From contig NW_024881972.1 of the NCBI RefSeq assembly GCF_019059575.1, positions 434,001 to 498,000 of the forward strand: a stretch of 64,000 nucleotides of DNA, read 5' to 3'. Shown here in pieces: positions 2,787 to 53,800 of the stretch (the first letter of the stretch is position 1; each line of letters starts with the position of its first letter). The position numbers and the translations under genes are program-made. The stretch is from Amphibalanus amphitrite. Taxonomy: Eukaryota > Arthropoda > Thecostraca > Balanomorpha > Balanidae. The notes below the pieces were generated by a model, which made no database searches, was not told the DNA's origin, and saw only the letters and a program-made list of their open reading frames with translations.

Positions 2787-3441
2787 TTAACCCTCGCCGG
2801 CCGAGGGGGGGGGGGCGGGTTCCGCCCCCCATAGGTTTTTCGCGATAGCTCCGAACACGCTGGCGATAGAAAGCTGAAACTTGGCATACCTGACCTTTGA
2901 TCCAAGCCGCATCTTTTGACACCAACCGCATTTTTGGGTCAGGTCAGGTCACTGACCTATGACGTCATAAGTGAACTTCTGCACGGTCTTCGGATGTCGC
3001 AACTTCGCAGCGCCCTCACTGCCAGAGGAGATGTCACAGGGAAATGAAACTTGCAGGATCTAGTATCCATTATGAGGCTCACAACTTGTATATCTCGGAT
3101 TTTTCCTAAAGGTCATATGAGGTCAGGTCATTTTCGTGACCTCACCATTATAAGTCAATGGGGAAAATGAAAACTGCTATTCTGGCGCCGGGAACGATCT
3201 TTAACTATCTTAAGCACACAGAATCGTGATTTGATGCACTCCTTGCAAGGTTAGATGCGTCACCGTCATCAAGGTCATATTAGTTTTTCGTCAATAACTC
3301 TTGATCAAATTGAGCTAGCGAGTCGGGAAAGCCACCAATGAACTCAGGAAGACCTGCCGAATCGAATGATATGCGACGTGACCTCTTTCGACCACAGGGC
3401 GTATTTTAACATGTTAACTGGGTCGGCAATTGCCGACCCAG

Positions 3442-4879
3442 TCACGGAGAATGCCGACCCAGTGACAGCCGTTTGCCGACCCAGTTGCCGCCCCCTCTAG
3501 GATGCAGCACGCACATGTAGGCTAGGTGCCGTCATTCATAGTGAGACTGCTGCCCTCCGAAATGATAATGCCGCCTCTTAAAGTGAAGCAGCCGTCTATA
3601 GAAAGTGATGATCCCGCAACTCAATGCGACAGTGCCGCCCCTAAACCTGTTAGTAGCCCCACTCAATGTAATGGTGCCGCCCTTCTAAGCATCTATGGAG
3701 CCCCTCAATGTGATGATACCGCCCCACAAGAAGATGATGCCGCCCCTTTCAGTATCGGTGGCGCCCCTCAATGTGATGGTGCCGCCCTCAAAGTGCCGTT
3801 GGCGCCCCTGAATGTGATGGCGCTGCCCGCCAACGAGTCGGTGGCGCCCCTCAAAATGATGCTGCCGCCCCTTAAAGTGTTGGCGCCGCCCCTCTAGGTG
3901 TCCACATAGCCCCTCATTGTGATGGAGCCGCCCCTCAAGCAGATGATGCCGCCCCTCAAGAAGATGATGCCGCCCCTGAATGTGATGGTGCTGCCCGCCA
4001 ACGAGTCGGTGGCGCCCCTCAAAATGATGCTGCCGCCCCTTATAGTGTCAGTGACGCTCTTCGAAGTGTCAGAGGAACCCACCAATATAATGGTGCCGCC
4101 CCTCTAGGTATCCACATAGCCCCTCATTGTGATGGAGCTGCCCCTCAAGCAGATGATGCCGCCCCTTTCAGTATCGGTGGCGCCCCTCAATGTGATGATG
4201 CCTCCCTCAAAGTGCCCGTGACGCCCCTAAATGTGATGGTGTCTCCTGTCAACGAGTCGGTGGCGGCCTTCAAAATGATGCTGCCGCCCCTAAAAGTGCT
4301 GGTGCCGCCCCTTACAGTGTCAGTGGCGCCCTTCAGAGTTTTGGAGGAACTCATCAATACAATGTTGCCGCCCTCTAAGTTTCTGTAGCGTCCCTCCATA
4401 TACATACATAATGGTGCCGCTTCTCAAACCATCCGAGACGCCCCTCAAAGTGATGGTGCCGCCCCGTACAGTGTCGGTGGTGTCTCCTCAAAAGTCAAGG
4501 CGCCGCCTCTATAAGATATACTGATTACTGGTGTCCCTCGAAGTGTTGGAGGCGCTCCTCAATGTCATGTTGCCGCCCCTCAAACCTTCCGTAACGCCCC
4601 TCCACGTCATGGTGCCGCCGCTCAATATGCTCACGGCGCCCTTAAATGTGATAGAAGCGCCGGTCAAAGTGATGACTGTGCTCCTGGCAGTGTCGGTGGC
4701 GCCCCTTATAGCGTCGATGGCGCCCCGAACAGTATCGGTGGTGCCCTTCAAAGTGATGATGTCACCCTCAAGGCTCAAACAAACGGTGGCGCCCTTCGAA
4801 GTATCGGAGTCCCTAAATATCATACCTATTGCCGCCCATTAACGATCTGTAGCGCCCCTCCATATGATGGAGCCGCCCC
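3442..4879. repeat. 21-bp minisatellite, array 1
   Basis: The unit is close to GCCCCTCAANNTGATGGTGCC, repeated with a 21-bp period over about 1.4 kb. Higher-order copies are visible. The segment starting CAACGAGTCG occurs at 3831, 3999 and 4250, spaced 168 bp (8 units) and 251 bp (12 units less one base). The TCTAGG-containing segment recurs 210 bp apart (10 units), at about 3893 and 4103. The first part (3442-3500) consists of TGCCGACCCAGT subterminal repeats that grade into the GCCGCCCC units, suggesting the array grew from the element's own subterminal repeats. Because 21 is divisible by 3, frames through the array stay open and give meaningless heptad proteins. Confidence 0.85.
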
Positions 4880-4883
4880 TTAA

Positions 4884-5887
4884 CCCTATTCCTGGCGGGG
4901 GGGGGCCTCAGGAGCCCCCCCTGAGGTTTTTTGGTTATTTCTCCCAAACGCTTTGAGCTAGGAAGCTCAAATTTTCTGACTTTTACTAAAAGGCTTTTAC
5001 GCAACATTTCTGAAAATTTTGAGTTGATCTGACCTCAGGTCAGGTCACCAGAGGCGGTTTGGTGACCCTACCTCAGAAAAGTTTGCAATCACGCCAGAGC
5101 TAGAGTTTTTGACCGATCAATTTCTTCTCTTCAGGCTTTAGTTAGGGTACCAGTATGTGCAATTTGTATATCTCAGAATTTTCATATCTGTGACCTGAGG
5201 TCAGGCCAGACTCGTGACCTTTACATTGCAAGCCAATGGGAAAATATTGAAACGCCTCCTGCTTCGTGTAAACGAGTCAAAACCACCCAATTCTTTCAGT
5301 ATTATGGAAGATTATCTCATCGGTGATGATCCTGGTGCCGCTAATTGACAGGGGCACCGGCAAAGGTCATCTGAGGTCATGTGACATCATAAATCGTTTT
5401 TTCTGTAAATAAATCACGACATGATGGTGCTAAAGACTTGCAAGTGGTACCAAACTGCTCGCCTGGTCAAGGCGCGTCGTTTGGTATGCAGCATGACCAT
5501 ACCCCACAACCTCATTGATGAATAACCTGACCTTGACCTCAGGTCAAATTTCAAATTGACCTGTGAAGGTCATCACATACTTATTTCGCATTGCCTCGGC
5601 GAGAGCAACAAAAAATGTATTGGTTTTATGTCTCTATGTTTCTTAGTTTAAAAGTTATATAGGTAACTAATTCCAAAACATTTTATCGTTGATGACCTCT
5701 GGTGACCTCAATATTGACCTGACCTGAAAATGTTTTTTGTAAAAGTTGTAGATCTTTAAACGACCTATGAAACGCCGTTCGCCGTTTGTCGCTGCGATGT
5801 GTAGTTTTTGAGATCTGAAGGGGGGGCCGAATCGGCCCCCCCCCCCCCGCCAGTTTCTTGTCCCGGCGGAGCCCGCCAGGAATAGGG
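4884..5887. mobile_element. piggyBac-like non-autonomous element, family B
   Basis: Flanked by TTAA at 4880-4883 and 5888-5891. The terminal repeats are CCCTATTCCTGGCGGG, perfect over 16 bp. The left end is compact. The right end has about 26 extra bp separating two copies of the CTGGCGGG part, the spacer asymmetry shared by all families here. G-tract/C-tract hairpins lie beside both ends. The interior holds TGACCT-N-AGGTCA everted repeats (for example near 5195) and many half-sites. It interrupts the minisatellite and shares its right TTAA with element C. No coding capacity. Confidence 0.82.
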
Positions 5888-6194
5888 TTAACCCGGCAGT
5901 TGCTGGGGTATTTCGCCACCCACCGTTTGCTGGGGGGGGGGGGGGCGTTAAACGCCCCCAGCCGATAACTGGAGAACCAATAGGCGCAGCGAACTGCACG
6001 AGGCGGCAAACGAAAAAACGCGACGGGACGCTTCAGATGAGTACTTTAAAGTTGAATTTTGAAGTCACAGATCGGGTCAAGGTCAGGTCAAACACCTAAA
6101 ATCGGGCTTTCAGTAGCATGGACTTCAGGACTTCGCAATGGGCGCCTCTCGTCATAAACTCTGTCAAAACGGTGCTCAAGCCATCAAATAAGGT

Positions 6195-6434
6195 TGTAGT
6201 GTAGTACCCCTCCCCGGGCCCCCCGCCGGCTGGCAGCGGCGGCCGGAGCCAGTCCGACCTTTAGCCGGCCGGGTCAGGTAACCGGGACGGCCGCACCGCG
6301 GCGCCGCGCCCGGGCCGGCCGGGAGACGGAGTCGGGTGCCCGCCGGCGAGCCGTCGGCAAGGGCGCGGGGCACATTAGTTCTGTATGTTCAGTCTTGAGT
6401 GCGAGTGATGAATGTGTGAGTGCAATACACTACA
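6195..6434 (+). repeat. Left LTR of Gypsy-1
   Basis: 240 bp, TGTAG...CTACA, identical by eye to 10530-10769. The first two thirds are extremely GC-rich without a clear TATA box. An arthropod-type initiator TCAGTC lies at 6389-6394, a plausible transcription start and so the U3/R border. Confidence 0.93.
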
Positions 6435-6436
6435 AG

Positions 6437-6449
6437 TGGCGACAAGAGG
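6437..6449 (+). other. Putative primer-binding site of Gypsy-1
   Basis: TGGCGACAAGAGG begins two bases after the left LTR. It starts with the TGG expected for pairing with a tRNA CCA end and roughly resembles the complement of serine tRNA 3' ends, the primer class known for mag elements. The tRNA assignment is tentative. Confidence 0.5.
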
Positions 6450-6479
6450 CTGAGATAAGCGGACTGCATTCAAGACGAC

Positions 6480-9400
6480 ATGTTCCAGTCACCGGCGCCA
6501 CCGGAGTTCCTGTCGCGGCCGGGACAGCGTCCTGGGAGCTGGCGACAATGGTACGAGGACTTCCTGGTCTTCGCTGAGGCCAGCGGGTGGTTGGACTGGA
6601 CGGACGGTCGTCGGACAGCGTTCCTGTTGACAGCAGTCGGAGCGGAGGCACGTCGACTCTACCGAGCTGCTGCTTCAGCTACCAAGCAGGAGAACATCGA
6701 ACCTGGAGTAAGTGACACTGACGCCGGCGGCGCTGGTGCTGCAATTGTGTCTCAGTTCGATGCTGCTGTAGCTGTTTTCAAGAAACTGTTTGAGAGCGAT
6801 TCTGATGTTCGTTCTGCACGCTTGAAATTCCGGAAATGCACCCAAGGCCCTGATGAGTCATGCGTGATTTTCCTGGCCAACCTCCGCGAGGCAGTGGCCT
6901 GTTGCAGTTATGGTGCCCTGACTGACGACATACTGCGTGATCAGTTTATCGAGGGTTGTCGCTCTGACCAGCTTCGTGACAAGCTGATAATGATTGATGA
7001 CCTATCTCTCTCCAAGCTAGAGGCTGTCGCCGAGGCCCACGACCGGGGCTTGCGGCGAAAAGCTCTACTGCAAGACTCATCTGCCGGTGCGACTTCACCT
7101 TCAGCTCCTGCGGTGGAGGTGGCGTATACTGGGCAGCGGCGCAGCACGAGCCGCAGTGACTCAGCGCGTAAGCAGACGCAGCGTCAGCCTCCTGTGAAGA
7201 AGTCAGGTACGTGTCGTGCCTGTGGTCGACCGGGTCACTGGGCAAATGACAAGGAGTGCAGAGCGAGGAACCTGAAATGTTTCAAGTGTAACACTGTCGG
7301 ACACTTAAGCAAGTGTTGTCCTCGTTCTAACAAGACCGGTGCTGTTGACAATGTGCAAATTTTGTCCGTGTCTGCTAAGGATGACGTATGTCCTGTCGTT
7401 CAGACAGTGTCGTGCCCGTACTATGATGCCTTCATTGAGATGAAGCGTGTCAGGATGCTGGTTGACACCGGCTCGGCGGTCAGCATCGTCCCAGCGAGGA
7501 CGTACTGGCAGCTCTTCAGTCACGTCCCTCTCCGTCCTGCGGGTAAGCTCGCCCAGTGGAACGGCAGCGGCATTAAGGTGCTGGGTAAGATGTCAGCTGA
7601 CGTCACAGGACCGGACCAGCTCTCCGTTCCAGCGGAACTGTACGTGGCGGTGGGTGATGTACCGATCATGGGCCGTGATCTCCAGCATCAGCTCGGAGTC
7701 ACGGTGAGCCGTGGCAGTGTCGTCTGCCAGGTGAAGCAGGATCAGGTGCTGCCAGCCATCAAGGGATTCATCCACAAGGTGCGTCTGATTCCCGGAGCTG
7801 TGCCCAGCACGCCACACCTGAGGACTCTACCGTACGCTGTGAGGCAGGAGGTCAGTGACCATCTGGAGTCCCTGGAAGCCCAAGGAGTCATCGAGAAGGT
7901 ACCCTGTGGCTCTTCGCCCTGGTTGTCTCCGATTGTCGTGGTCCGGAAGCGAGGAGGTGAGGGCCTGAGGATCTGTCTCGATCTGACGGCGGTGAACAAA
8001 GCCATTGTCGCAAACGGCTACCCCATCCCTCCGATGCAGGAGATGCTGGACAAGCTCCGAGGTGCCAAGGTGATGTCCAAGCTCGACATGAAGTCAGCCT
8101 ATCATCAACTGGAGCTGCACGAGGAGTCCAGGAACCTCACTGCTTTCGTGCATGAGGGTCAGACCTGGAGGTACAAGCGGTGCTGCTTTGGGCTCAAAAG
8201 TCTTCCGCAGTGTTTCCAGAAGCTCATGGAGACTGTTCTGCAAGGCATCCCTGGTGTTCAAGTCTACCTGGATGACGTACTGGTCACAGCGCCCACCCGT
8301 GCAGAGCACGACGCGAGGCTCAGCACCGTCATGAAGCGGCTGAAGGACTACGACATCACGCTAAACAGGGAAAAGTGTCTGCTAGGTGTTGTGTCGCTGG
8401 AGTTCCTGGGGTTCGTCGTGTCGGAGCGTGGGATCGAAATCTCACCAGATCGGGTCCAAGGTCTTCGAGACATGGGACAACCCCAGAACACCAAGGAGCT
8501 CCAGGCTGCACTGGGGTCCCTCGCGTTCTACAGCAAGTTCGTGCCCAACTTCAGCTCTCGGGTAGAACCTCTGCGGCAGCCGCTGAGGAAAGACGCCCCA
8601 GCCTTCCGATGGACGGAGGAGATGACAGCTGCGCTGGAGGATGTGAAGTCGGCGATCCTGAACTCGTCTGCGCTGGCACCGTTCGACCCCAGTCTGCAGA
8701 CGTTCGTCACGACCGACGCCAGCGACGTTGGTCTCGGGGCCGTTCTCTCACAGATCCACCCAGATGGAGAGAGAGTGGTGGCATTCGCCTCCAGCACGCT
8801 CAGCGCAGCACAGCGCAAGTACAGCGTAACTGACAGAGAGGGCCTGGCATGCGTCTGGGCGTGTCAGAAGTGGCACAAGTACCTGTGGGGCAAGGAGTTC
8901 GTTTTGCGGACGGACCACGCTGCCCTTCGCTCTCTGCTGTCTGCCAAGGGCATCGGTCGGGCCAGTATGCGAATGTCTCGCTGGGCCGTCAAGCTGATGA
9001 ACTATGCGTTTCAGGTTCAGCACATCGAGGGGAAGTTGAACCAGGCTGATGGCATCTCACGCCTTCCCGGCAGTCATGGGGTTGCAGAAGACGAGGACCA
9101 GCTGGTCGCAGCCCTGGAGGAGATGATGCCGGCGGTGAGCAGCGCTGATATCGCCGCAGCAGGCCTTGAAGATGACGAGGTCAAGGCGCTGATCTCGCAG
9201 ATCCCACAGCGCTGGCCGTCGAAACTGAGGGAGGTGCCGCCTGTGCTGAAGCCCTACTTCAGGTACAGGAACGAGCTGAGCATCGAGAAGGGTGTGGTGT
9301 TCAGAGGTGAGAGGATACTTGTTCCTTCTGCCCTCAGAACCCGCGTGGTGACAGTTGCCCACGAAAGCCATCCCGGGATAGTGCGCACGAAGCAGCGTCT

Positions 9401-10427
9401 GCGCGCAGTCTTCTGGTGGCCAGGGATGGACGGCGAGGTGGAGACAGCCGTCAAGAACTGTCCCACCTGCTCTGTTGCGGACAAGTCGACCAAGACGTCC
9501 AGGACGCCTCTCATCCCGGTCTCGCTGCCTACTGCGCCGTGGGACAAGGTGGGAGTGGACTTCATTGGTCCGATGCAGGGTCCGGCAAATCAGAGGTACG
9601 GCATAGTGCTCACAGACTACTACTCCAAGTGGCCGGAGGTGGCGTTTGTATCAGAGCCAAGTACAGACGCCGTGATTGACTTCCTGAAGTCAGTGGCGAC
9701 CAGAGAAGGCTGGCCGAAAGAGCTGGTGAGTGATAATGGAACCCATTTCACGTCAGCACGGTTTGCATCGTTCTTGCAGGCTAACGGGATCAAACACATC
9801 AAGGTGTCCCCGTATCACCCAGCAGGTTCCGGAGCTGTGGAACGCTTCAACCGCAGTCTGAAGTCTGCCATCCAGATAGGTGAGCAGCAGAAAGCAGACA
9901 GGCGGCGGCACGTTCAGCAGTTCCTGATGGTGTACCGGGCGACGCCGCACGCCACGACGGGACGCAGCCCGTCAGAGCTGCTGCACGGACGCCAGCTGCG
10001 GACGTCACTGGAGAACGCCGTGGTGCAGAGCAGTGACTGCAGAGGTGACGGCGCCATCCAACAGCACGTCCGGAAGAAGCAGCGAAAGATGAAGCGGTAT
10101 CATGACCGAACGGCAAGGAAGCCCGACATAAAGGTAGGCGATCTCGTTCGCTATCGCCTGATGCCAAGGCCGCGCAAGGGAAAACCTCGGTTTTCCAAGC
10201 CATGTGTCGTCACCGCACAGCGTGGTCCCGTGTCGTTCGAGCTGGAGGGTGGCATCAGAGTCCATGCCGAGCGACTCTCCCCGTGTCATACATCTGTCCG
10301 CCGGCCTGACGTTCCCGGAGGAGGCGGGCGAGAACAGGCTGACGAGCCTGATCTGCTTCCTGACGACGCCGGCGGCGGCGCCGAGACTGTCGGCGTGGAG
10401 ACAGCCGACTGCCGGAAATGCCTCTAA
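6480..10427 (+). CDS. Gypsy-1 Gag-Pol polyprotein
   Basis: A single open frame of 1315 codons. The first ~230 residues are Gag-like. Two CCHC zinc knuckles follow, CRACGRPGHW (about 244) and CFKCNTVGHL (about 265). The aspartic protease motif MLVDTGSAVS is near 325. Reverse transcriptase spans roughly 450-640 with LDMKSAYHQL and the catalytic YLDD near 594. RNase H begins near TTDASDVGLGAVL (about 744). Integrase has an HHCC finger (about 960-1000), the VDFIGPM and SDNGTHFTS catalytic segments and HPAGSGAVERFNR, then a GPF-like C-terminal module. The ATG at 6480 gives the full Gag N-terminus shortly after the primer site. Function is copying and inserting its own element; no host role is suggested. 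Confidence 0.95.
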   Translation: MFQSPAPPEFLSRPGQRPGSWRQWYEDFLVFAEASGWLDWTDGRRTAFLLTAVGAEARRLYRAAASATKQENIEPGVSDTDAGGAGAAIVSQFDAAVAVFKKLFESDSDVRSARLKFRKCTQGPDESCVIFLANLREAVACCSYGALTDDILRDQFIEGCRSDQLRDKLIMIDDLSLSKLEAVAEAHDRGLRRKALLQDSSAGATSPSAPAVEVAYTGQRRSTSRSDSARKQTQRQPPVKKSGTCRACGRPGHWANDKECRARNLKCFKCNTVGHLSKCCPRSNKTGAVDNVQILSVSAKDDVCPVVQTVSCPYYDAFIEMKRVRMLVDTGSAVSIVPARTYWQLFSHVPLRPAGKLAQWNGSGIKVLGKMSADVTGPDQLSVPAELYVAVGDVPIMGRDLQHQLGVTVSRGSVVCQVKQDQVLPAIKGFIHKVRLIPGAVPSTPHLRTLPYAVRQEVSDHLESLEAQGVIEKVPCGSSPWLSPIVVVRKRGGEGLRICLDLTAVNKAIVANGYPIPPMQEMLDKLRGAKVMSKLDMKSAYHQLELHEESRNLTAFVHEGQTWRYKRCCFGLKSLPQCFQKLMETVLQGIPGVQVYLDDVLVTAPTRAEHDARLSTVMKRLKDYDITLNREKCLLGVVSLEFLGFVVSERGIEISPDRVQGLRDMGQPQNTKELQAALGSLAFYSKFVPNFSSRVEPLRQPLRKDAPAFRWTEEMTAALEDVKSAILNSSALAPFDPSLQTFVTTDASDVGLGAVLSQIHPDGERVVAFASSTLSAAQRKYSVTDREGLACVWACQKWHKYLWGKEFVLRTDHAALRSLLSAKGIGRASMRMSRWAVKLMNYAFQVQHIEGKLNQADGISRLPGSHGVAEDEDQLVAALEEMMPAVSSADIAAAGLEDDEVKALISQIPQRWPSKLREVPPVLKPYFRYRNELSIEKGVVFRGERILVPSALRTRVVTVAHESHPGIVRTKQRLRAVFWWPGMDGEVETAVKNCPTCSVADKSTKTSRTPLIPVSLPTAPWDKVGVDFIGPMQGPANQRYGIVLTDYYSKWPEVAFVSEPSTDAVIDFLKSVATREGWPKELVSDNGTHFTSARFASFLQANGIKHIKVSPYHPAGSGAVERFNRSLKSAIQIGEQQKADRRRHVQQFLMVYRATPHATTGRSPSELLHGRQLRTSLENAVVQSSDCRGDGAIQQHVRKKQRKMKRYHDRTARKPDIKVGDLVRYRLMPRPRKGKPRFSKPCVVTAQRGPVSFELEGGIRVHAERLSPCHTSVRRPDVPGGGGREQADEPDLLPDDAGGGAETVGVETADCRKCL

Positions 10428-10516
10428 CGTCGACGTCGAGGACGCCGGAAACATGGAGGGCCCGTACCGCACGCGAGCGGGACGGGCAACGAGGCGCTGG
10501 TGGAGATGAGCGCTTC

Positions 10517-10529
10517 GGGGGGAAGGGAA
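10517..10529 (+). other. Polypurine tract of Gypsy-1
   Basis: A purine run GGGGGGAAGGGAA directly abuts the right LTR, the expected position for the plus-strand primer. Confidence 0.75.
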
Positions 10530-10769
10530 TGTAGTGTAGTACCCCTCCCCGGGCCCCCCGCCGGCTGGCAGCGGCGGCCGGAGCCAGTCCGACCTTTAGC
10601 CGGCCGGGTCAGGTAACCGGGACGGCCGCACCGCGGCGCCGCGCCCGGGCCGGCCGGGAGACGGAGTCGGGTGCCCGCCGGCGAGCCGTCGGCAAGGGCG
10701 CGGGGCACATTAGTTCTGTATGTTCAGTCTTGAGTGCGAGTGATGAATGTGTGAGTGCAATACACTACA
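10530..10769 (+). repeat. Right LTR of Gypsy-1
   Basis: 240 bp, matching 6195-6434 without a difference that I can see. It is followed by AAGGT, the target duplication. Confidence 0.93.
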
Positions 10770-11407
10770 AAGGTCTACAAGAGTGTCAGCTCCATGTAGG
10801 GGTCAGTCAAGCATAGGTCAGGGTCAAGGTCAGGTCAACCGGGTAGGCACATATCCCCGAAAATCTAAACTGATATTCGCAGCCTGTGACACATGTTTTA
10901 TGGGTAATTTGGGGCGTAGAACACGATGGTGACATTCATTTTGTCATATGTGTACGTGTTTGGCTCAAAAAGTTCAATTTAAGAAATGCATGTATCATGG
11001 TCGTGAAGAAGTCACGAGAAATTGACAAGGTTCAGTTCAAGATTTTGGAAAATGCGGAACGATAATCAATAATCGAAGATAGCTATTTCATTGTTCAAAG
11101 TATTGGCAGTCTAATGGCGTTTACGACATGTCTGTATGTCTATTTTGTGATTTTATATGATTTTTGAACATATGCCGTTTTTGGTCATAAACTCATAAAT
11201 CATCACGTCACTAAAACGGAACCTCGATATCTAAAAAATTTTCTGACCGATTTTTTTTGAAACTTTTAAAATCAATGACCTTCAATCAATTTCCTACAGG
11301 TACCCAAAATTTGGCGCGCCTGCGGCCCGCCGTTTTTATGCTATGACCCGGCGAAAAAAGTGGGGGCGTTCAACGCCCCCCCCCCCCCCCAGCAACTCGC
11401 GGGTTAA

Positions 11408-11747
11408 AGTATACGCGGTGGTCCTTAAAGTTACAGTGCCGCCCCTTACAATGTGGTGGTGTCCTTAAAATAAAATTGATGTTGCCCCCCGAGTAATGTT
11501 GGCGTCTCTTCTTTAAGTATCGGAGGCACTCCTCATTGTCATTTTGCCCCACATCACTACGCACATGGCGCCCTCCAATGTAATGTTGCCACCCCCAACG
11601 CTCAAAGAGATAATTGCGCTTCTCACAGTGTCGGTGGTGCCCCTCAAAGTGGTTTAAGTGCCCTAAAAAAAGTTGGTGGCGCGCCTCAAAATGATGCTGT
11701 CGTCCCTTAGCATATCTGCAGCGCCCCCAAAATGATAGTGCCTTCCC
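11408..11747. repeat. 21-bp minisatellite, array 2 (degenerate)
   Basis: Continuation of array 1 beyond the B/C insertion. Words such as GCCGCCCCTTACAATG, GCGCCCTCCAATGTAATG and GCCCCTCAAAGTG recur with roughly 21-bp spacing but more drift. The stretch ends at TTAA (11748-11751), where a decayed family D element begins. Confidence 0.7.
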
Positions 11748-11751
11748 TTAA

Positions 11752-12860
11752 CCGGCGCCGGGCTGAGGCTGTTTGAACCCCCCTCCCGACCCCTATAACT
11801 TGGCTACTGGGCCACGTAGCGACACGCGGTAAGCGGCATTCGAAAGAGTGTCAAAAACTACTTGGGTTAGTTGGTTAACCGTACTTTGGTTAGGTCAAGT
11901 CAAATGTCAAATATCAGGTGACCAGAGGTCATCAAAGGTGAAATGTGCGTGAAATGTTGTCTGTTTCAACATTTATTGACAAACTGGCGTATAATTCGGG
12001 GAAGAATAGAACTATGTACAGCACCGCGAAAAAAAGCGCATTCGATAGCTCTTCAACGTTCCTATAAAGTCCTCAGACTTGACCTAACATCAACGGCTTA
12101 ACCTCCAGAGCACAACTAGTTTAACCCGTGCCGGGCCGGGGAGGGTTGGAGTGGACAGTGGACCCCCTCCACCCCTCTACTGAGCTGTTTTAATGAAGAA
12201 CCTTTTTACTGTAATAATTATTACAGTAAATAATAATAATAATTATTATTATTATTATAATTATTGACTCACGAAAGTTATGACATTGTTTTTTTCAGTA
12301 CTGTGCTCCTCTCGTCGAGATGCGTCGAATGAACTATAATTTGACATTCAAATGTCATTTGGGAAATTTGAGCTCAGGTCCAGGTCATGACCTGACTAGT
12401 AAAGGTCATGTTGCATATCAGTCGATTTGTATCGTCAAACTGAAATCATCTAAGGTGTTTTCATCGCTCAGGCATGTCGCATGTCTCTATCAGAAGTTAT
12501 TGAAAAAAAACTGCTGGAGGCCTTCCATGACCTGACATGACCTCAAGGACATAACGAGGGGTCGTGGTCGTGGGTGGCAATTTTCCGATTAAGTGTGTCA
12601 TTTTTAATTGTTTTATGATGTTTAAATTCGTTAACTTTGTCTTTGACATTTCTCTACCTATAAAAGAGGCACATGCCCTGATTTTCTCCCATTTCCTTAT
12701 ACCTAATGGAAGGGTCGCAAAATTGTCCTTACCTTTGGTCAAAGACATAGCAATTTCGAGACTTACATTTTATATATACAGTTACACACTGTTTGTCTTA
12801 TCAATCGCTGACGTTATAAAGGGATCGTTCAGTCGGTGTATCTATGGTGAGCATTTGCCT
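11752..12860 (+). mobile_element. Decayed piggyBac-like element, family D copy 1, right end lost
   Basis: After TTAA (11748-11751) the sequence CCGGCGCCGGGCTGAG... follows family D (38288-39466). It has the same CACGTAGCGACACGCGGTAA subterminal motif (11813-11832) and the same middle section with GAATGAACTATAATTTGAC (about 12328) and GTTGCATATCAGTCGAT (about 12409). Similarity fades near 12855 and the right terminus is not found. An internal stretch (about 12120-12270) differs from the intact copy and includes a second GCCGGGCCGGGG-like word and an AT-rich palindrome. It is clearly older than the other copies. Confidence 0.7.
12205..12267. repeat. AT palindrome and TAA/TTA microsatellite
   Basis: 12205-12230 is a perfect 26-bp palindrome (arms TTTACTGTAATAA) followed by (TAA)n/(TTA)n repeats to about 12267. 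It lies inside the decayed D element and replaces sequence present in the intact copy. Confidence 0.7.
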
Positions 12861-12892
12861 GTTCCGTAGCTCAGTTGGTAGAGCACCGGACT
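12861..12892 (+). pseudogene. tRNA 5'-half fragment
   Basis: GTTCCGTAGCTCAGTTGG then TAGAGCACCGGACT matches a tRNA acceptor start, D-arm and first anticodon-stem strand, including an A-box (TRGCTCAGTTGG). No matching anticodon loop closure, TpsiC arm or B-box (GGTTCGAATCC) follows. It is probably a fragment or the head of a lost tRNA-derived SINE, not a functional gene. Confidence 0.45.
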
Positions 12893-13359
12893 CCCCGCAT
12901 TGTCTTCGCTTGCGTTTTGTCCGCCGGCCGAGCCGGAGAGAAAGTTACCGAGTGAAGTTCATTCAAATTTCAAAAACTCAATGAAAATGTCACTGGGGTC
13001 ACGAAAATATTTGAGTAGGTAGGTATACCATTCATTAACGTGGGGGGGGGGGGGGGTGAACGTATCGTTGCAATACGCTGTTCATCACGCGAGTAACTAA
13101 TAAATAAAAAATGTATGAGTTCATCCTTACTCCACCCGCTCTCCCTCTCCATAAAAAAGAGTTAATTGTGTTGCATTTTATTTATATGCAGAAAAATAGA
13201 TGCGTCAAAGGGTATGGCCGAATATCAGCGACCCTTGCTGTGTAAGCAATGGGGTATGATTAGTGGGGGTAATGGCCCCGTCCAGCGCCCATAAAGTGGA
13301 CACCACTCGCGCGACCTGCCGACCACTGTTCTATGTATAGATAGAGCCATAAAACACCG

Positions 13360-13600
13360 TGAATGTTTTAAGCTTGACGATACGAATCGACTGGTATGCA
13401 ACACGTTTTATTTCTGGTGAGGTCATGAACTTGACCTCAGGTAAAATTTTTAAATTAATATTTGTAAAGTCAAATTATAGTTCATTTATCGCATTATGAC
13501 GAGAGAAATACTATATCCCGGAAAATAAACATAATACCGCTGAGCTTAGGTTGAATCTGAAATCATTACTTAGAAGGAGCTATAAAAGAACCGTCGAACA
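13360..13600. mobile_element. Decayed fragment of a D/F-type TTAA element
   Basis: The stretch ACGATACGAATCGACTGGTATGCAACACG, GAGGTCATGAACTTGACCTCAGG and CAAATTATAGTTCATT parallels the middle of element F (about 37535-37640). No ends are identifiable. A G-tract after a TTAA at about 13036-13058 may be its degraded terminus. The intervening 12900-13360 holds nothing I can name. Confidence 0.5.
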
Positions 13601-13627
13601 TTTCTTTTTTGGTCATTAAATATCAGT

Positions 13628-13712
13628 AGGTATGCCGCCCCCCTCAGATGCCAAGTGCCGCCCCTATGAGTGCGAAATGCCGCCCCTAATTGTGATTGCC
13701 GACCCAGTGAAA
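13628..13712. repeat. Right subterminal repeats of the hAT-like element
   Basis: Three TGCCGCCCC units of 19-23 bp and one TGCCGACCCAGT unit mirror the left subterminal region at 3418-3500, just inside the right terminal inverted repeat. Confidence 0.75.
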
Positions 13713-14131
13713 ATCCCTTAAAATATGCCCTGTTCGACCAGCTTCGTGACCTGGGGGTGCTGACCTGTCCTTGACCTAGGTCAACAGCCTAAGTTGACCT
13801 GACCCGAACAAAAATTACATCATTCGACGCGCCTGAGCGAGGCGAACACGATGCTGCCAAAATCGCGGCTCTGCGGCCGTTTTTTTGCGAAGTTATTCAC
13901 CAAAAACTGAACCGCACCTTGGGGCACTTGACCTGACCTCAGAGGTCACCGGTTGATCTGGGACCTTACAATCGGGTACCAATCTTTGCGTCTCGTAACG
14001 GCGCACACGCTCGTTTTTTTCCGCGACGCGCTAGCTCCACCAGGGGCGAAACCGCGAGGGGGGTCGTACCCCCCCCCCCTTCCCCTCGGCCGGCGCGTAT
14101 GTAGAAAACCAATAGGTCCGGCGAGGGCTAA

Positions 14132-16699: not shown

Positions 16700-16703
16700 T
16701 TAT

Positions 16704-17733: not shown

Positions 17734-17737
17734 TTAT

Positions 17738-18412: not shown

Positions 18413-18709
18413 CACTGAAAACAATTTAACCCAAGGCCGGCGAGTAAACCGGTGTTTCACGGGTACCCCTACCCGCAACCATTTTTAACCACCCTCCCAG
18501 GAGTAGTGCTAGGTCTCATTGCGGTGTAGTCGTACTTGCACTGAGCGGATATAACCGCTGTCAGCGAACATATCCACTGAGAGCAGGGACGACTACACTG
18601 CAATGGGACCTTACTGTACTCTTGGGAGGGTGGTTAAAAATGGTTGCGGATAGAGGTACCCGCGAAACACCGGTTTACTCGCCGGCCTTGGGTTAAATTG
18701 TTTTCAGTG
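18413..18709. mobile_element. Palindromic MITE / foldback element, 297 bp
   Basis: The two arms are complementary over most of their length: CACTGAAAACAATTTAACCC at the left and its inverse at the right, continuing through GGCCGGCGAGTAAACCGGTG and the GGGAGGGTGGTTAAAAATGG arm, with a loop near 18540-18590. A 2-bp CA lies on each side (18411-18412, 18710-18711). TTAA followed by CCC occurs inside the arms at 18426-18432, but the symmetry extends beyond it, so it need not be a TTAA insertion. Superfamily unassigned. Confidence 0.75.
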
Positions 18710-28323: not shown

Positions 28324-28327
28324 TTAA

Positions 28328-29355: not shown

Positions 29356-29359
29356 TTAA

Positions 29360-30784: not shown

Positions 30785-30788
30785 TTAA

Positions 30789-31788: not shown

Positions 31789-31792
31789 TTAA

Positions 31793-36077: not shown

Positions 36078-36081
36078 TTAA

Positions 36082-38283: not shown

Positions 38284-38287
38284 TTAA

Positions 38288-39466: not shown

Positions 39467-39470
39467 TTAA

Positions 39471-40865: not shown

Positions 40866-40867
40866 TA

Positions 40868-41840: not shown

Positions 41841-41844
41841 TTAA

Positions 41845-42744
41845 CCCTCGCCGGCACAGGGGGGGGGGGTTGATGCAACCCCCCCTAAGGTTTTTCGCGA
41901 ATAACTCGCGTAAAAAGCGGCCGATCGCGACGAAACTTTCAGTACCCTCGCATTGATCAATTTTACACCTACCCTGAAAATTTCATGACCCTGACCCCAA
42001 TGACCTTTGACCTGTGACCTCTTTTCTGTGACCATGTTTGGCCGAAATCGCGGTTCGGCGCATGTCGGCTCGCATCAGCCGCGCGTTTGCAAGCTTTTCG
42101 TGGTTTCAAACGTTCAAACATGTGATTTGATGTTGCTCCCATGCATTAGGGTGGGTGTCAAGGTCACCTGAAGGTCAGGTCAGGTCACTGACCTTTGGTG
42201 ACCTCGGGTGACCTCGGTTCACTTTTTCGAGTTTTACATGTTTCTAGGCTAGTTTTTGGAGCTGAATTCGAATTTAGCAACCATTTGAACATTTACGAAG
42301 TAGTTTTGGTGCCTTCGTAACATGTTACGAAGCTGTCCGAGGCGGTTGACACGTATTACGAATACCCGTCACAACCCCTACCGGTTGACCTGACCTGACC
42401 TGACCTGACCTGGTCTAAATGCTTATAGACATCATCTCTGATCAAAACTAACACGATATTCGTGATCAGCACCCCGGAAAACCACATAGAAGCCACACTT
42501 TACGACTTTCTAACAGGTCCCGATTTTCCCGGTTTTCGGGTCATTGACCTGACCTGGAAGGTCACCCGATGACCTAGGACCTTAAAATTGGGTATCATCG
42601 GCTTCCTCTCGTGACGGGCAACACGCTCGTTTTTTTTTCGCGAAGCTCTAGCTCGATCAGGGGCCAAACGCGAGGGGGGTCGTACCACCACCCCCCCCCC
42701 CTTTGTGCCGTCGAAGGACTCAAAATGGCCTGTGCCGGCGAGGG
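41845..42744 (-). mobile_element. piggyBac-like non-autonomous element, family G
   Basis: 900 bp with perfect 16-bp ends CCCTCGCCGGCACAGG, flanked by TTAA (41841-41844 and 42745-42748). The right end has the long spacer. It contains AGGTCA-C-TGACCT (42182-42194) and five tandem TGACC units (42386-42411). The right interior resembles family A (CACGCTCGTTTTTTT... near 42611), so A and G form one subgroup. Non-coding. Confidence 0.87.
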
Positions 42745-42748
42745 TTAA

Positions 42749-43208: not shown

Positions 43209-43261
43209 AGATATTTAGCTAGAGATAGAGATAGATATATAGAGAAAGAAAAGTAGAGTAC

Positions 43262-43613
<352 letters not shown>

Positions 43614-44019: not shown

Positions 44020-44067
<48 letters not shown>

Positions 44068-47200: not shown

Positions 47201-48748
47201 GAGGCGGGCAGTTAGGCGGCTGGCGGCAGCTGCGGCAGGCACTCGAAGGCGGGCTGACAGAAGCTCCAAAGTGCAAGCCGTCTGCCCGTGTCCGAGGCTG
47301 TCTGGAATACCAGCGCTGCCGGACGCGTCTGAGCCGGCCTCCTGTTGGTTTTTCATGGCCACATGGCACGAATGGCACGTGAACAGGCTCGTGCAGTCTG
47401 CAGGGACATTGTAAGCCGCACCTGCGCTCAGAGGGGGTCTGGCTCCGGCTGCACGATTGATGCGCGGAAATGTAGCTGCTTGCATAGGTAAACATGTGCT
47501 AAGTGAAAAGTGTGATTGCTGTGAGTGGACGTTTGCATGTGGAGTGCCTGAAGGGCGTGCAACGCGATATCCCTTTGCTCGAAGAATACAATGAAACATA
47601 CAAGCCTTTCGGGTTTCGAATGCTGCGTTTTATGCTGGCAATCGCCTTCCATGTAATTCGTAACGTTACAAGTACTGATATAACAGCTATCACATCCAGC
47701 CCTCAACGCCACCACGGGCCTCTACAACAGAAACATATAATGCAAAAAGAGCAAAAAAGGAAAAGTCATACCATCCAAAAATACGGTTAACTTGAAACAT
47801 TACAGCGGCCACAGGCTGCTTCTTGAAATCTCTAATTCAAAGCGTATATCAAATTCCGTTTTATTACGTTGATCTGTCCTGTAATACTCGTATTGATGGC
47901 GTCGGACTGAGGCTGCCTTTTTAGTTTCCGTTCACTGGTCCCCGCACTCCCCGAGTCGTTCGGTTTAGTGAAGCCAAGCTCTCAGGCGCAGAGACCTTTT
48001 AGCCTCTCTATTAGGCCTCTCGGATGGATGAGACCGCGCAGCCCATTGTAAAACCATCCGAAATCACTTTACCGCGCAGAACCGCGGGTCTCGCGGTCTG
48101 GTAATGGCTGACCAATGCCAATCTCATGGAACATCACTCTGATGGTGGCATAAAAAGGCTTGAGTGGAGGAGAGGCAAATTAACTCAAACACTAGATGGA
48201 GAGAATAGATAAGGAACAAGACGACGCTTTGGAGATGCAGTCATCAGTTTCTTAGTAATCTGAAGACAATTCCAATATTACAGCAATTCCTTTGATATGG
48301 CCTGCCGATTATGAAACAATGCGGCAAAATATTTTCGGTGAACGACTATTTGATTGTATGTTGTTTGTCAGTTTACTTCCGACAACAACCTCTTGTAGAT
48401 TCAGCTGAGGTCTGGCACATTGACTCCATATCGGGAATGCCCTTGGAGTGGACCACTGTGTAGTACACCGTCCGGTGACCACTGTGGAATGCTATTGCAA
48501 ACTTTACTCGTTGCAAGTGGCCGTGGTGCAGACGGTGACGTGCGTCGTGCACCCGTCTTACGATCCAGGTGGCGCCACCTGCCGCCGTCAGCGGCGGCTC
48601 AGACCGGTCGTTCGCCGGCGCCGTCAGTCAGCTGTGGCCGGCGGCCGGTGAAGGAGCGGGTCACGCGCCGTGGCCGTGTCACCTGTGTGAGTGCGTGTCC
48701 GCGTGCGATGTCCGCCTGAAAGCAGCAGAGGCGGCCTGCTGCTGCGCG
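44256..48748. promoter_or_regulatory. Region upstream of Toll; promoter and 5' UTR expected but not located
   Basis: 4.5 kb without recognisable coding. It mixes AT-rich DNA with GC-rich islands at about 46070-46170, 46780-46980 and 47130-47330. At 46170-46205 GGCAATTAATGATGAGCC is followed by a perfect CRE palindrome TGACGTCA (46198-46205), a plausible regulatory cluster. The Toll 5' UTR, promoter and any upstream non-coding exon probably lie here or farther left; no convincing TATA or initiator can be chosen by eye. Confidence 0.35.
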
Positions 48749-50827
48749 ATGCGCCCGCGGGTGGCCGTGGTGCGGTGGCGAGCGCTGCTGGCCGCCGCGG
48801 CGGTGATGACGCTCCGGTGCGCCGCCGATGTCTGTGAGGAACCGGCTGAGGGCGAGGTGGTGTGCTCTGTGGCAAATCTGGACTCGGGATTGGTGAACGC
48901 GTCACGACCGGCGGCTGTGAGGCGGCTGGAGCTGCGGTGCAGCGACAGAGCGCACCTGCACGACGCCACGGAGCTGGCGCTGCTGCGGCACCTGCCGGCG
49001 CTCGAGTCGCTCGCCCTGCGGGACTGTCAGTTCAGTGAGCTGCGGCGCAGCACGCTGAGGCATGTGGCCGGTCTGAGAGAGCTCAGTGTGAGGACGTTTC
49101 AGTCCGAGTGGCTGTCAGACGAGCTGAAACTGGCGGCGGATTGTTTTGAGGACATGCAGGAGCTCGAGACTCTGGACATCAGTGGGAACAACATGTGGTC
49201 ACTGCAGCCCGGGCTGCTGCAGAAGCTGCCACTGCTGAAAGTTCTCAACGTGTCTGGCAACCACCTGCAGCAGATGTCTGCTCTGAAAGAGACCGGCGTC
49301 GGCCCTGGTTTGCAGGTGCTGGACATCTCCAACAACGGTCTCACTGAGGTCGGGACGTCCGACTTCCACGAGTTCGTCAACCTGAAGGAGCTGTCGCTCA
49401 GCTCCAACTCGCTGTCCGTGCTTCAAGACGGCTGGCTGACTGGTCTGAGCCGGCTGGAACGGTTGGATATCTCCCAAAACCAGCTCACGACCCTGCCGGC
49501 GCTGATGCTGAACGAGACGAAGGCGCTGAAGGCAGTGATGGTTCAGGGAAACAACATCACTGTCCTTCCGCCGGGTCTGCTGGCCGATCTGCCGCAACTG
49601 CAAACCGTCAACATGTCCGGAAACAGTCTAAGCGCGCAATGGATCAGGAAGGACACCTTTGCTGGCCTGCTTCGTCTGATCGTGTTGGACCTCTCGAGGA
49701 ATGTATTGGACTCTTTGAGCCCAGATGTGTTTGAAGACCTCTCCAGTCTGCAGGTCCTGGATCTCAGCAACAACCAGTTGGAGACAATGCCTGCGGGTTT
49801 GTTCACATCGCTGAGCAATCTGCACACATTGACATTGTCCGGCAACAGCCTGAGTCGCCTGGAACCGGGCTTCCTGGCTGGTCTGCACGTACTGAGCCGG
49901 CTCAGCCTCGATAACAACCGACTGGCTTCAGTTGATGACGATGTGTTTGCCAACATTACCAGCATTCAGAACCTCCGCATGCAGAAGAATGAACTGACTT
50001 CCATCCCAAGCTCTCTGCGCCGCCTGACAAATCTTCAAGAGCTAAACGTGGCAGAAAATAATATATCTGACGACACTCATGGTGTGCTACAAGCTCTTCC
50101 ACATCTGGGGCTGTTGAACTTGGCTGGAAACAAGCTCAGAAACGTATCGGTGGAATTCCTGGCCAACCTGACCGACGTATCAATGCTTGACCTGTCAAGA
50201 AACGAAATTGAAAACGTTGACAGTGGAGCTTTCGACAAGGCCACCAATCTGATGGCAGTCCGTCTGGACGCCAACAAGCTCCGCAATATCAACGGCCTAT
50301 TTGCCAAACTGCCGTCGCTGCTGTGGCTGAACGTGTCCGACAATCAGATCGAGTTCTTCGACTATGCCCTCATCCCGGGAGAACTGCGGTGGCTGGACAT
50401 GCACAAGAACCAGGTGCGAGAGATCGGCAACTTTTACAACATCGAGTCCGTCATCCGTTTGGAGACTCTGGACATCAGCCACAACCAGGTCTCGCTCATC
50501 GGTAGCTCGTCCGTTCCTGATAGCATCAAGTACTTCATCATCGCCAGCAACCAGCTGACCACCGTAGAGCCGGGAACGTTCGAGAACAAGCGACAGCTGA
50601 TCCGTGCCGACCTCTCGTCCAACCAGCTCAGCGAACTGGCACAGGACGCTGTGACTCTGCCGAGAGACGACGATGAGGGTTCTGTCACAGTGAACACTGC
50701 GCCAGACGATGCGGAAGGATCGACAAAGCATGCTGAGCTTCTGCTGGCCGGCAACCCCTTCGTCTGCAACTGCCACATGGATTGGCTTTTGGCCAAAAAT
50801 GCGACATCCAGCAAACGCTACCCAAAG
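48749..50827 (+). CDS. Toll: Toll-family receptor, coding exon 1 (signal peptide and leucine-rich repeats)
   Basis: Encodes residues 1-693 of a predicted 1361-residue type I membrane receptor. I chose the ATG at 48749 because it begins a good signal peptide (MRPRVAVVRWR followed by ALLAAAAVMTLRCAA, cleavage near residue 26). The frame stays open upstream to an ATG at 48569, but that extension is Cys- and Gly-rich and unlike a Toll N-terminus. About twenty LRRs follow (LxxLxLxxNxL pattern), then the first C-terminal cap starts with CNCHMDW near 672. The exon ends CCAAAG before GTAAGA (donor 50828), phase 0. Long Tolls act at the plasma membrane, in insects in epithelial patterning and some immunity. 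N-x-S/T sites suggest glycosylation. Confidence 0.93.
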
Positions 50828-53800
50828 GTAAGATACATACATTCCTATCATGTCCGACGTTTAAATTGCCCCTCTCAATTGTTGGAACATCATATTCCAT
50901 GCGTGAGAGATTGTGTTTGTGCTCCTTGCCGTTTGATGCATGAAATTATTGATGGGGTGGTTTACGATTGATGGGAGCAGACGTGACCATTATAAGTCAA
51001 TATGTTGGATGAATCGCCTGTGGCTCTGGGGCACCCTGAAATTTAGCTTCTGCGAATTTTCGGACTATCCGTAGTTTCCCAATTGGTCAAGACCTGTACA
51101 AGAAGCTCTACCTTGGTGGCTTTTGGCTGTCATTGCTTTTCTGCAAATGCTTGGTTAAATTTTACGAGTATATAAAGGTGTCTGAAATCCGTTCCAATTA
51201 ATGTACATATTCAATGACTAACCGCCCACTGGAACGGCTGGTTATGATATTAATCCCAAGGGACTTTAGAGCTTGATATTACCCGTAACGGTGAATGGCG
51301 ATTCCTTCGGTTGTCTGGCGGTATGGCAGGCCTGATAAGGTCAACATGCAGTATACATATACCTACCTTCCTAGCCTACCTAGCCATAAGGCGCCAATTT
51401 CCAGCATAGTGACGTCTAGGAATCTAAATGAATCACCCGTTCTGAGGAATATTGACGCACTGCATAAATTATGGCTTCAGTAGCTTTCTGTCGGAGTTTT
51501 ACGTTGTATAGTGTAGCATCCACGCCAGTATGTAGTGCGAAGGGTAACATGTCAATGTCATGCTAGTGCATTGAACACCGAACGCAACTTATGGACAAAT
51601 TTGCCGTTGGGTTCATCGATTTGACATTCAACTGGAATGTTACACAGTACACACTGTGCTAACGTCATTTTACTTTAGCTGAAAATAACAGTAGACCTTG
51701 GTGCACCACCATCGCTCTATCTTCAACAATCAACATGAATCACTGGATTTTTGGCATTCCATCAGAGCCGACGCTTTCTCAATCCGGTTTTGTGGACACG
51801 TGATCCGCCTGCGATGTTGAATGGTGTATCATAAAACGAGTACCTATATAAGTAGCGTTAAATAGTGGCAGCAGGACAGTGTTGTTCACGTTCAGTGTGA
51901 TTTTCGGTTATATTCGAGAGAAAAAAATTCCAGGAGTGTGCCTATAGAGTCTCGGGTGAAATGGCGTCTTGGAAAAGCGACGCTTCAACGTCATTTATGC
52001 TTTAGATGACACAATACAAACATAGCATATACATTGCGAGATCGTCCTCCCCAACCACTTGCGCCATCATGCAAAACAGGGAGACAGGTCTTTATTCAAA
52101 ACGTCATGTGCCAAAAATCGCACGATCTGCTTCTAGCTTTGTAACGCAGCGCAGTCACCATCACAGGCCGCAGACGACCACGCGGACTGCGGCTATCGGT
52201 CACGTTTCGAGTTTCGACTGCGGAGCACGATGGTCCTCGCTGGTGTGGGGCCCGTCAAGGACATCTCCAAATCTCGCGCATGACGCGTCCTTTATTTCGT
52301 CTTTTATGTGCTCGAAGTCGTTGCTGGCCGGGCGAGCTGTGACCTGTAACGGCTTTCGATAGTGCATTGCAGCATTGATAGATTCCAGCTGTTAAGACCA
52401 GCTGATCTGGTACCGATACTTAAATTTATGATAGGCATATTGAATTCAGACTTAGCCTTTCGAAAAAAACTGCAATGCAGCATTCCTAGCTAGTGTAGAG
52501 GTTAACGCAATCGCGTGGAAAGCAGGCCGAGACATTGGATCAGCTATTTATGTGGGCCGGCTATTAGCCAAAACCTAAAGTAACTCATCAGCGCAAAAAC
52601 AAATACATTGTGCTCCATCGAAAATGGCGCCTCACTGATTGATGCATTGCAGAGCGGATTTGTCGGTCGGAGGCTGCTGCCGTGCTGCTCAGTTCGTTAA
52701 CACGCGCACTGCAGGGGGGGGGTTGTTTTCAACCCCCCCCCTGTGGTTTTTCGCAAATTGCGAGAAAACGGCGGCGCGTAGCGCCGCCAAATTTTGTATA
52801 CCTGTTCTCACAACTTTTGCACACCTTGAGCAAAAATTTTGACCCCAGGTGACCTATGGTCAGGTCACCAGGTCAGGTCAAGTGACCCTACCTCGAAACG
52901 TAAATTTCGAAGTTTGCAATCCCACCAAGCCCACAGTTGTTGAGATATGATCTTAAAACCCACAGGAAATAGTAAAGTCATCACGAGCTACAACTTGTAT
53001 ATCTCGGAATTTTTATATCGATGACCTAAGGTCAGGTCATTTTTGCGACCGGCCCATTATAAGTCAATGGGAGAAATTTCAACTTACTCTGAATGCCATC
53101 CTATGACTTCAATACGCTCAGGATCATAGTATTACAGGTCCCTGTTGGTGATTTCACCGAAACATATCACTTATGACCTTTGGAAGGTGATCTCCAGGTC
53201 ATCTTAGGTCACCTGAGGTCACCAGCGGTTTTTCTTCAATAACTTGAGATTGAGTAGAGATAGAGACTCCGTTCGACGTTTATCGTGTTTTTCTCGTCAA
53301 TGCGGATCGAATTGACCTATTTCGGTCAGGTCATGACCTTGACCTGAGGTCAAATTTTCAACTTGACCTTTCGAGGTCATATTATATATCATTCGATGCG
53401 CCTTGACGAGCTAAGAACGATGGCGTTCGAATCGATCCTCTGTCTTGTGTGCAAGACAAGTTATTCAAGAAAAACTACCGCGAAATTCCTGTTGTGAAAA
53501 TCGTAACATTTTGTCTTCGGTGACCTCTGGTGACCTCGTTTTTGACCTGACCCAAAAATGATCTTAGTATTTCTTGTCGATCTCATGAGATCGACAAGAA
53601 GATATCTTAAGATATCTTAAGATATCTTAAGATATCTTAACCTATCCAACGCCGTTTACCGCTTGTCGCTACGTTGCGCCGTTTTCGAGATCTCAGGGGG
53701 GGTTGTTTTCAACCCCCCCCCCCTGCAGTTTGTGTTCGGCTCAGACCCGCTGCAGTGCGCGTGTTAAAACACACGCAACTCGGCTCCCTCGCACCGCTCT

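Follow-up and report, generated by a model that had tools for sequence, protein, structure and literature searches.

A lattice of AGGTCA half-sites at ~165-bp spacing in TTAA-flanked, non-coding elements of Amphibalanus amphitrite

The CMITE elements of Acropora corals insert at TTAA, and several of their families carry differing terminal inverted repeats (TIRs) over a conserved interior, in a genome that also contains piggyBac transposases; some copies are in tandem (PMC2872659). The mouse short interspersed nuclear element (SINE) RSINE1 has spread nuclear-receptor-type motifs, in that case the ROR response element (RORE), with support from chromatin immunoprecipitation sequencing (PMC8240256). 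The elements described here, found in a 64,000-nucleotide stretch of the Amphibalanus amphitrite genome (the window; positions 434001-498000 of contig NW_024881972.1), resemble the coral elements in these respects and RSINE1 in the spread of such motifs, which was seen here in sequence only. They carry about 20 copies of the half-site AGGTCA, grouped into clusters that recur along the element at a spacing of about 165 bp.

Elements were delimited by TTAA plus TIRs and then compared pairwise, and a half-site was defined as AGGTCA or TGACCT. The null expectation was obtained from 300 dinucleotide shuffles of each element and 50 shuffles of the rest of the window. Full elements hold 17-22 half-sites per ~1 kb compared to ~0.5 after shuffling. 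The observed counts and shuffle means were 19 and 0.50 for element A2, 21 and 0.47 for A3, 17 and 0.51 for B, 21 and 0.51 for D, 18 and 0.62 for E, 22 and 0.52 for F, 19 and 0.46 for G, 21 and 0.53 for H, and 10 and 0.31 for a piece of A1; the largest count in any element shuffle was 4. A sequence-only reading of the window had estimated about 18 words in A2 against about 0.5 expected, and this estimate was borne out by the shuffle control. Its statement that every family is dense in half-sites holds for A, B and D-H and fails for C, the two pieces of which contain 2 and 4 words. The spans used for counting were slightly wider than the element limits (2786-3399 and 13733-14135 for A1; 5888-6200 and 10784-11410 for C). 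The window outside the elements contains 37 half-sites in 52,027 bases, where 50 shuffles gave a mean of 26.3 and a largest count of 44. Two further TTAA elements with TIRs lack half-sites altogether, so that density is no general trait of TTAA elements: a 1008-bp element at 30785-31792 that starts with AGGGACAGTATCA and has a Kolobok-like AG terminus, and a 271-bp TTAA-flanked palindrome at 18426-18696 with arms of 148 nt that are 88% complementary.

In seven window elements the half-sites are grouped in clusters ~165-170 bp apart, a feature absent from the sequence-only reading. The best period was 169 bp with a power of 88, compared to a mean of 30.5 and a maximum of 50.4 for 2000 random placements of the clusters, and each of the seven elements alone is more regular than random placements in which clusters stay at least 100 bp apart (p at most 0.0014). 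Element B has the clearest lattice, with gaps of 160, 167, 166, 178, 159 and 182 bp. The element ends lie roughly one period from the outermost clusters (136-232 bp), and element lengths are near six or seven periods (1012-1036 and 1185-1187 bp), with a less exact fit for G (908 bp) and for H (1071 bp, including a microsatellite). The lattice interior of ~900-1200 bp mostly contains four to six nodes, where a node is a cluster of overlapping half-sites with a GGTCA core or, in some families, the palindrome TGACGTCA; A/T tracts are often present on both sides.

Genome-wide work used the host assembly of 807.55 Mb in 2644 contigs, from which 20 stretches of 10 kb were taken, 13 at positions set blind to content and 7 placed on pattern hits. 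Distances between half-sites in the 13 unselected stretches peak at 160-179 (261 pairs), 320-339 (158) and 480-499 bp (112), with troughs of 11 pairs at 240-259 and 19 at 400-419 bp, giving four clear cycles of ~165 bp. An element search was then made in 28 fetched loci plus the window, accepting TTAA, TTAT or ATAA pairs with terminal repeats matching at no fewer than 11 of 14 positions. Of 50 flanked TIR pairs, 38 contained at least 6 half-sites, some of these pairs being overlapping or due to chance, and 12 contained at most 2. From the 38 we retained 27 complete elements of 800-1300 bp with termini starting CC or CA; 7 came from the window, 7 from unselected stretches and 13 from loci or stretches chosen for a 17-mer. 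The best period fell between 150 and 188 bp in all 27, and comparison with 1000 random placements of each element's own clusters gave p<0.05 for 25 and p<0.01 for 18. One homologous interval measures 160-163 bp in all six families in which it was compared, at a sequence identity of 47-60%. Across 113 intervals, A/T runs flank the nodes and are rare at nodes and in mid-interval, and the free interval has a median of 136 bp. With the nodes masked, a direct internal repeat of at least 40 bp was found in only one of the 27 elements (F, at 176 bp) and an inverted one in eight. The lattice units are mostly not similar to each other, and the lattice is not a satellite-like tandem repeat. At one locus (L036, 4968-7371) parts of a lattice element are duplicated in tandem, possibly by unequal exchange between nodes.

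A second word shares the lattice. The palindrome TGACGTCA, a CREB/ATF-type word, occurs 78 times in 264 kb, where 13.3 copies would be expected; its separation from AGGTCA is most often 160-179 bp (103), against 5 cases at 200-219 bp. In one group of elements (group 2) AGGTCA is absent from half of the element, and TGACGTCA stands at the lattice positions there. CACGTG was considered as a third lattice word and rejected; it is enriched (160 versus 81.7 expected), but its distances to AGGTCA lack the ~165-bp rhythm. The element centre also has a common anatomy, consisting of TGACCT(c/g)AGGTCAAGGTCA in A2, B, D, F and H and TGACCTcAGGTCAc in E. The TGACCTcAGGTCAAGGTCA core is present in A2, B, D, F and H, and E has TGACCTcAGGTCA only; in D the central node lies at 38786-38852 (+ strand), with the TGACCTcAGGTCAAGGTCA core between inverted arm modules of ~100 bp. 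This ~100-bp module occurs in inverted copies around the centre of A2, D, E, F and H. Element B and a diverged D-like copy also match it, and there are weak matches to its outer part at the ends of elements, those of G being the clearest.

The arrangement of neighbouring half-sites differs in part from the spacing of 0-1 bp that had been proposed for direct, inverted and everted repeats. Among adjacent pairs in seven elements the commonest form is a direct repeat overlapping by one base, AGGTCAGGTCA (23), followed, at 14 each, by direct repeats separated by 4 bp and everted repeats separated by 1 bp. Direct repeats with gaps of 0 and 1 bp were seen 6 and 3 times, and inverted repeats with gaps of 0 and 1 bp 3 and 2 times. 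TCAAGGTCA occurs 15 times in the window, counting both strands. Genome-wide pattern counts were paired with reversed-pattern controls, direct forms being summed over both strands and palindromes counted once. Of the four forms counted, the overlapping AGGTCAGGTCA leads with 258,952 matches (control 1,178), and the direct form with a 4-bp gap (DR4), AGGTCAnnnnAGGTCA, has 150,840 (control 532), which include AGGTCAGGTCAGGTCA triples. The everted palindrome with a 1-bp gap (ER1), TGACCTnAGGTCA, is present 56,977 times (control 44). The inverted palindrome with a 1-bp gap (IR1), AGGTCAnTGACCT, is the form used by ecdysone receptors; it is rarer than the everted form, with 20,300 matches (control 27). 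On these counts the arrangement does not appear to be mainly that of a classical receptor dimer site.

The sequence-only reading had treated the elements as eight distinct families. This does not stand, as A, B, D, E, F and H can be aligned from end to end and have a homologous interior behind different TIRs, with local matches between families that are ~65-88% identical. The density of each family is consequently not one of eight independent observations, and the combination of differing termini with dense interiors is largely due to common descent. Element G matches the others in its end regions only. By sequence comparison the window contains one superfamily plus G, with C placed in neither. 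The 27 complete elements form five interior groups of 13, 6, 5, 2 and 1 at the cut-off used, and groups 0, 1 and 4 inter-align.

Retention of the words between families was measured for ordered pairs among the six homologous families, aligned with half-sites visible and then hidden. Half-site bases are identical in 86.0% of cases (2701/3141) compared to 56.1% elsewhere (10053/17908), and 500 random shifts of the half-site mask gave a mean identity of 0.605 and a largest value of 0.702 against the 0.860 observed. With half-sites hidden from the aligner the values were 71.5% (2234/3124) and 56.2% (9993/17769). Whole words are intact in 346 of 496 cases, or 266 of 498 with half-sites hidden, whereas other six-mers are intact in 1428 of 14409 and composition-matched six-mers in 384 of 1761. 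Retention is about equal, at 85-90%, for each of the six positions of AGGTCA. Within three families (6, 4 and 3 copies) half-sites show 2.7-fold fewer substitutions than other positions (9/1557 versus 170/10921, p 0.0013), and fewer than positions in matched trinucleotide context (24/1434, p 0.0046); these tests treat sites as independent, which those of related copies are not. When half-sites seen in any copy were included, the count was 10/1566, with p 0.003 and 0.009 for the same two comparisons. Families taken singly are borderline or not significant (p 0.047, 0.15, 1 and 0.24). Words that are kept while their surroundings change probably bind a protein that matters to the elements.

The 13 unselected stretches contain 396 half-sites in 130 kb, or 3.05 per kb (bootstrap 1.59-4.83), compared to 61 for a word of the same composition. 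Of the 4096 six-mers in these stretches, AGGTCA is fifth by count and the most over-represented when judged by a fourth-order Markov model. Runs of at least 5 half-sites hold 312 of the 396 and cover 13.9% of the sequence (bootstrap 5.7-24.3%). For five patterns the ratio of the stretches to the genome-wide rate was 1.54, 1.32, 1.85, 0.92 and 2.26. As the 13 stretches are thus element-rich, fairer guesses than 13.9% and 2.5 million are a genome share of 6-11% for the lattice elements and a total of one to two million words. One block, YCATTGACTTATAATGG, is present in 16,488 exact copies (reversed control 0).

As to class, B, D, E, F, G, H and A3 are flanked by TTAA and A2 by TTAT. The terminal motif given for piggyBac-type TTAA elements in the coral study is CC[C/T]T (PMC2872659); the window elements have CCCT (A, B and G), CCTT (F), CCCG (D and E) and CACG (H). 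The lattice elements are non-coding TTAA-flanked transposons that were probably mobilised by piggyBac.

The explanation that we tentatively favour, while giving it somewhat less than an even chance as a whole, is that a host factor reads AGGTCA in the linkers between nucleosomes and that the elements gain from this as selfish DNA. Each node would be bound by a host DNA-binding protein reading AGGTCA, with an orphan or hormone-type nuclear receptor as the first candidate. The genome encodes nuclear-receptor DNA-binding domains in 77 exon-level zf-C4 matches; several of these exons are present twice with equal scores, on different contigs, which may mean that both haplotypes are in the assembly. 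Nodes would lie in linkers, so that several factors could fit on the element without evicting nucleosomes; their occupancy would keep the element open to the transposase in germ cells, and copies with intact nodes would multiply best. A by-product would be a spread of potential binding sites through the host genome, numbering of the order of a million or more and serving as decoys or regulatory raw material. We infer protein binding from the lattice, the retention and the abundance, and linker placement and benefit are likewise putative. A more far-reaching version strikes us as rather improbable: that these are selfish DNA with an evolved chromatin of their own, comprising five to seven nucleosome-sized segments with a host-factor docking array in each linker, maintained by selection across families that swap termini, making up on the order of a tenth of the genome and holding most of its AGGTCA sites in one element type.

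Several observations weigh against a host factor in nucleosome linkers. In two of the 27 elements, L019_4310 (p 0.076) and L021_3440 (p 0.147), the periodicity does not exceed that of random placement, and 30% of the random placements give a best period of 150-188 bp. Two other homologous intervals vary more than the one described above (151-182 and 161-179 bp). Hiding the half-sites from the aligner narrows the retention gap from 30 to 15 points, and the decayed D-like copy still retains its half-site bases (88/100 versus 502/704 elsewhere), so that no neutral baseline can be drawn from it. Helical phasing between nodes gave p 0.082 and 0.006 with seven related elements; with five representatives neither value was significant (p 0.77 and 0.18), and the phasing was rejected as unsupported. 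A 10-bp A/T periodicity between nodes is above its control, but this is weak evidence because the elements are related. Overlapping AGGTCAGGTCA is not known to seat two receptor domains side by side. Finally, a row resembling the lattice upstream of the transposase gene at loci L049 and L059 would fit a transposase or promoter role.

This last point leads to an account that we consider unlikely, in which the mobilising transposase itself binds the half-sites, and they are kept for assembly of the transposition complex. Transposases of the piggyBac group bind palindromes close to the transposon ends through their cysteine-rich domain, and arrays of such sites are required by several transposon systems (PMC11707139). 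The everted palindrome TGACCTnAGGTCA is abundant here, and the genome contains 116 DDE_Tnp_1_7 matches, all 116 over the cut-off; the neighbourhoods of 23 were examined (3 loci and 20 upstream stretches). Upstream of the transposase gene at L059 stands a row made up of two TGACGTCA, three clustered half-sites and one lone half-site, at intervals of ~170-195 bp, and L049, which carries the same transposase family, has the same row minus the first TGACGTCA; no TTAA end was identified for either in the stretches examined. A pair of half-sites 158 bp apart lies near the transposase gene, at the 3' end of the stretch read, in each of L044, L045 and L047, and L046 has a C-like lattice element beside a transposase gene. 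Against a transposase stands the distribution of nodes across the whole element, with a large one at the centre, and behind many different terminal repeats. A TTAACCC end was recognised at 10 of the 23 loci, and all 10 start CCCA rather than CCCG or CCCT; neither CCCGCGC nor CCCTCGCC ends were found at these 10, unlike the lattice elements, and the lattice is absent from the sequence read there. Of these 10, two were read from end to end; one spans 2681 bp with 2 half-sites and the other 3381 bp with 3. No autonomous partner with lattice-element ends was found among the 23 loci. At L037 a half-site cluster (3557-3746) lies just beyond the end (3543) of a complete transposase-bearing element, and probably belongs to a neighbouring lattice element.

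A neutral history, in which an ancestral ~165-bp tandem repeat or a spreading (AGGTC)n microsatellite was carried along by common descent, appears quite unlikely to us. It would fit oyster elements of Helentron type, which have arrays of ~140-180 bp monomers (PMC7492417), the homology of A, B, D, E, F and H, the arm module inverted around the central node, the direct repeat in F and a (TGACC)n run in G. It fits less well with the near absence of direct repeats once nodes are masked, with half-sites retained beyond their surroundings and with the occupation of the lattice by two different words. At the cut-off used, the interiors of G and of group 2 fall outside the other groups and yet have the same spacing; that cut-off also separates B, which does align, so independence does not follow from the separation. 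The unit of (AGGTC)n can be obtained by rotating the beetle telomere word TCAGG, and the genome contains long TTAGG arrays (9,894 overlapping six-unit matches; reversed control 5), but the palindromic nodes argue against a telomeric reading of (AGGTC)n. Also doubtful in our view is a host factor other than a nuclear receptor, such as a basic leucine zipper (bZIP) or zinc-finger protein reading a GTCA core, perhaps a silencing factor. Such a factor would account for the GTCA and the lattice that TGACGTCA and AGGTCA have in common, for the excess of GGTCA over AGGTCA in nine window elements (186 versus 151) and for a commonest arrangement that is not a receptor dimer form. However, the about equal retention of all six positions is as expected for a six-base site, and nuclear receptors are the known readers of AGGTCA.

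The element starts given by the sequence-only reading, directly after the TTAA, are correct. Element A2 (16700-17737, +) is complete, with a TIR matching at 11 of 14 positions, its 19 half-sites in 5 clusters and three TGACGTCA; A3 (28324-29359, +), also complete with a TIR of 11/14, is ~96% identical to A2. What had been listed as a copy, A1, is one half of an element (2787-3394, -, 10 half-sites), the other half of which starts at 13733 (13733-14131, -, 8 half-sites, outer end CTAA). The ~10.3-kb insertion that splits it (3395-13732) has an apparent 8-bp duplication, TTCGACCA, and ends that start CAGGGC, features by which we take it to be hAT-like; it carries arrays of a 21-bp repeat and houses B, C and the D-like copy. 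Element B (4880-5891, -) has a TIR of 14/14, with cluster midpoints at element positions 160, 326, 492, 671 and 830. Element C is interrupted by a gypsy element into a left piece (5888-6194, +, 2 half-sites) that has its TTAA in common with B and a right piece (10784-11407, +, 4 half-sites). The D-like copy (11755-12870, +, 8 half-sites), which was missed previously, has long local matches to D that are ~66-71% identical.

Element E (36078-38287, +) is 1029 bp without its insert and has a TIR of 14/14 and two TGACGTCA. The insert is F (36946-38130, -; TIR 12/14, 6 clusters), which is nested in E. Element D (38284-39470, +; TIR 14/14, 6 clusters) has its TTAA in common with E. The single TTAAs of the adjacent pairs B/C (5888-5891) and E/D (38284-38287) look as if later copies target a TTAA created by earlier ones. 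Element G (41841-42748, +) has a TIR of 14/14 and 4 clusters and contains (TGACC)5. Element H (52697-53767, -; TIR 14/14, 5 clusters) lies between two Toll-like exon blocks, a leucine-rich repeat (LRR) block at 48539-50971 and a block with LRR and a Toll/interleukin-1 receptor domain at 54086-56203, which resemble one Toll-type gene with H in the intron. G-runs and C-runs lie inside the TIRs at both ends of the window lattice elements (e.g. 52711-52741) and may form hairpins. The Rfam scan of the window gave no match at gathering cut-offs and the tRNA scan none. Viral contigs were scanned with three exact patterns, which matched 8, 0 and 0 times, and 8 is about what we estimate by chance for a 17-mer in so large a collection.

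If the favoured reading is true, a site for a transcription factor has become, in a mobile element, a structural module repeated at nucleosome spacing. It would then be possible to test in a natural setting whether transposition is limited by access to chromatin, and how a genome tolerates surplus decoy sites for its receptors. In this genome, lattice elements would overwhelm any search for hormone targets that relies on motifs, and even under a neutral history this is a very large, ordered repeat family. No description of a repeat family of this kind was found among the matches listed in the open-access literature, and among the open-access full texts searched none combined miniature inverted-repeat transposable elements (MITEs), piggyBac and AGGTCA.

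Each of the known systems shares some of these features. Xenopus T2-MITE/Kolobok elements are likewise non-coding MITEs with a TTAA target; their termini are given as AGGRR or RR in the part of the source available (PMC6004289), whereas complete lattice elements start CC, and H starts CA. Carrot MITEs with LHY/RVE sites likewise carry host transcription-factor sites, in a plant and for another factor (PMC13102513). Alu repeats have similarly spread AGGTCA-type elements, retinoic acid response elements of the DR2 type (direct repeats with a 2-bp gap), and the abstract portion of that report mentions no lattice (PMC1785376). The oyster HINE/Pearl elements are short and non-autonomous, with central repeats of ~160-170 bp, which is nucleosome-sized, and up to six units in Pearl; they are of Helentron type with true tandem monomers, as described in the available part of that work, whereas the elements here have TTAA and mostly dissimilar units (PMC7492417). 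Within window lattice elements there are CCATTGACTTATAATGG blocks (e.g. 36733-36750), and the conserved block in E has ten letters, CCCCATTGAC, in common with the 60-bp CMITE consensus as far as given, which may be chance (PMC2872659). CMITEs are ~100 bp long with a 75-bp conserved interior, compared to ~900-1200 bp and mostly four to six nodes here, and the consulted part of their description is without a periodic lattice of binding sites (PMC2872659). RSINE1, as far as the consulted part of its report goes, is a SINE with few, imperfect motifs that matured after insertion, whereas the lattice elements carry ~20 perfect words that are retained between families (PMC8240256).

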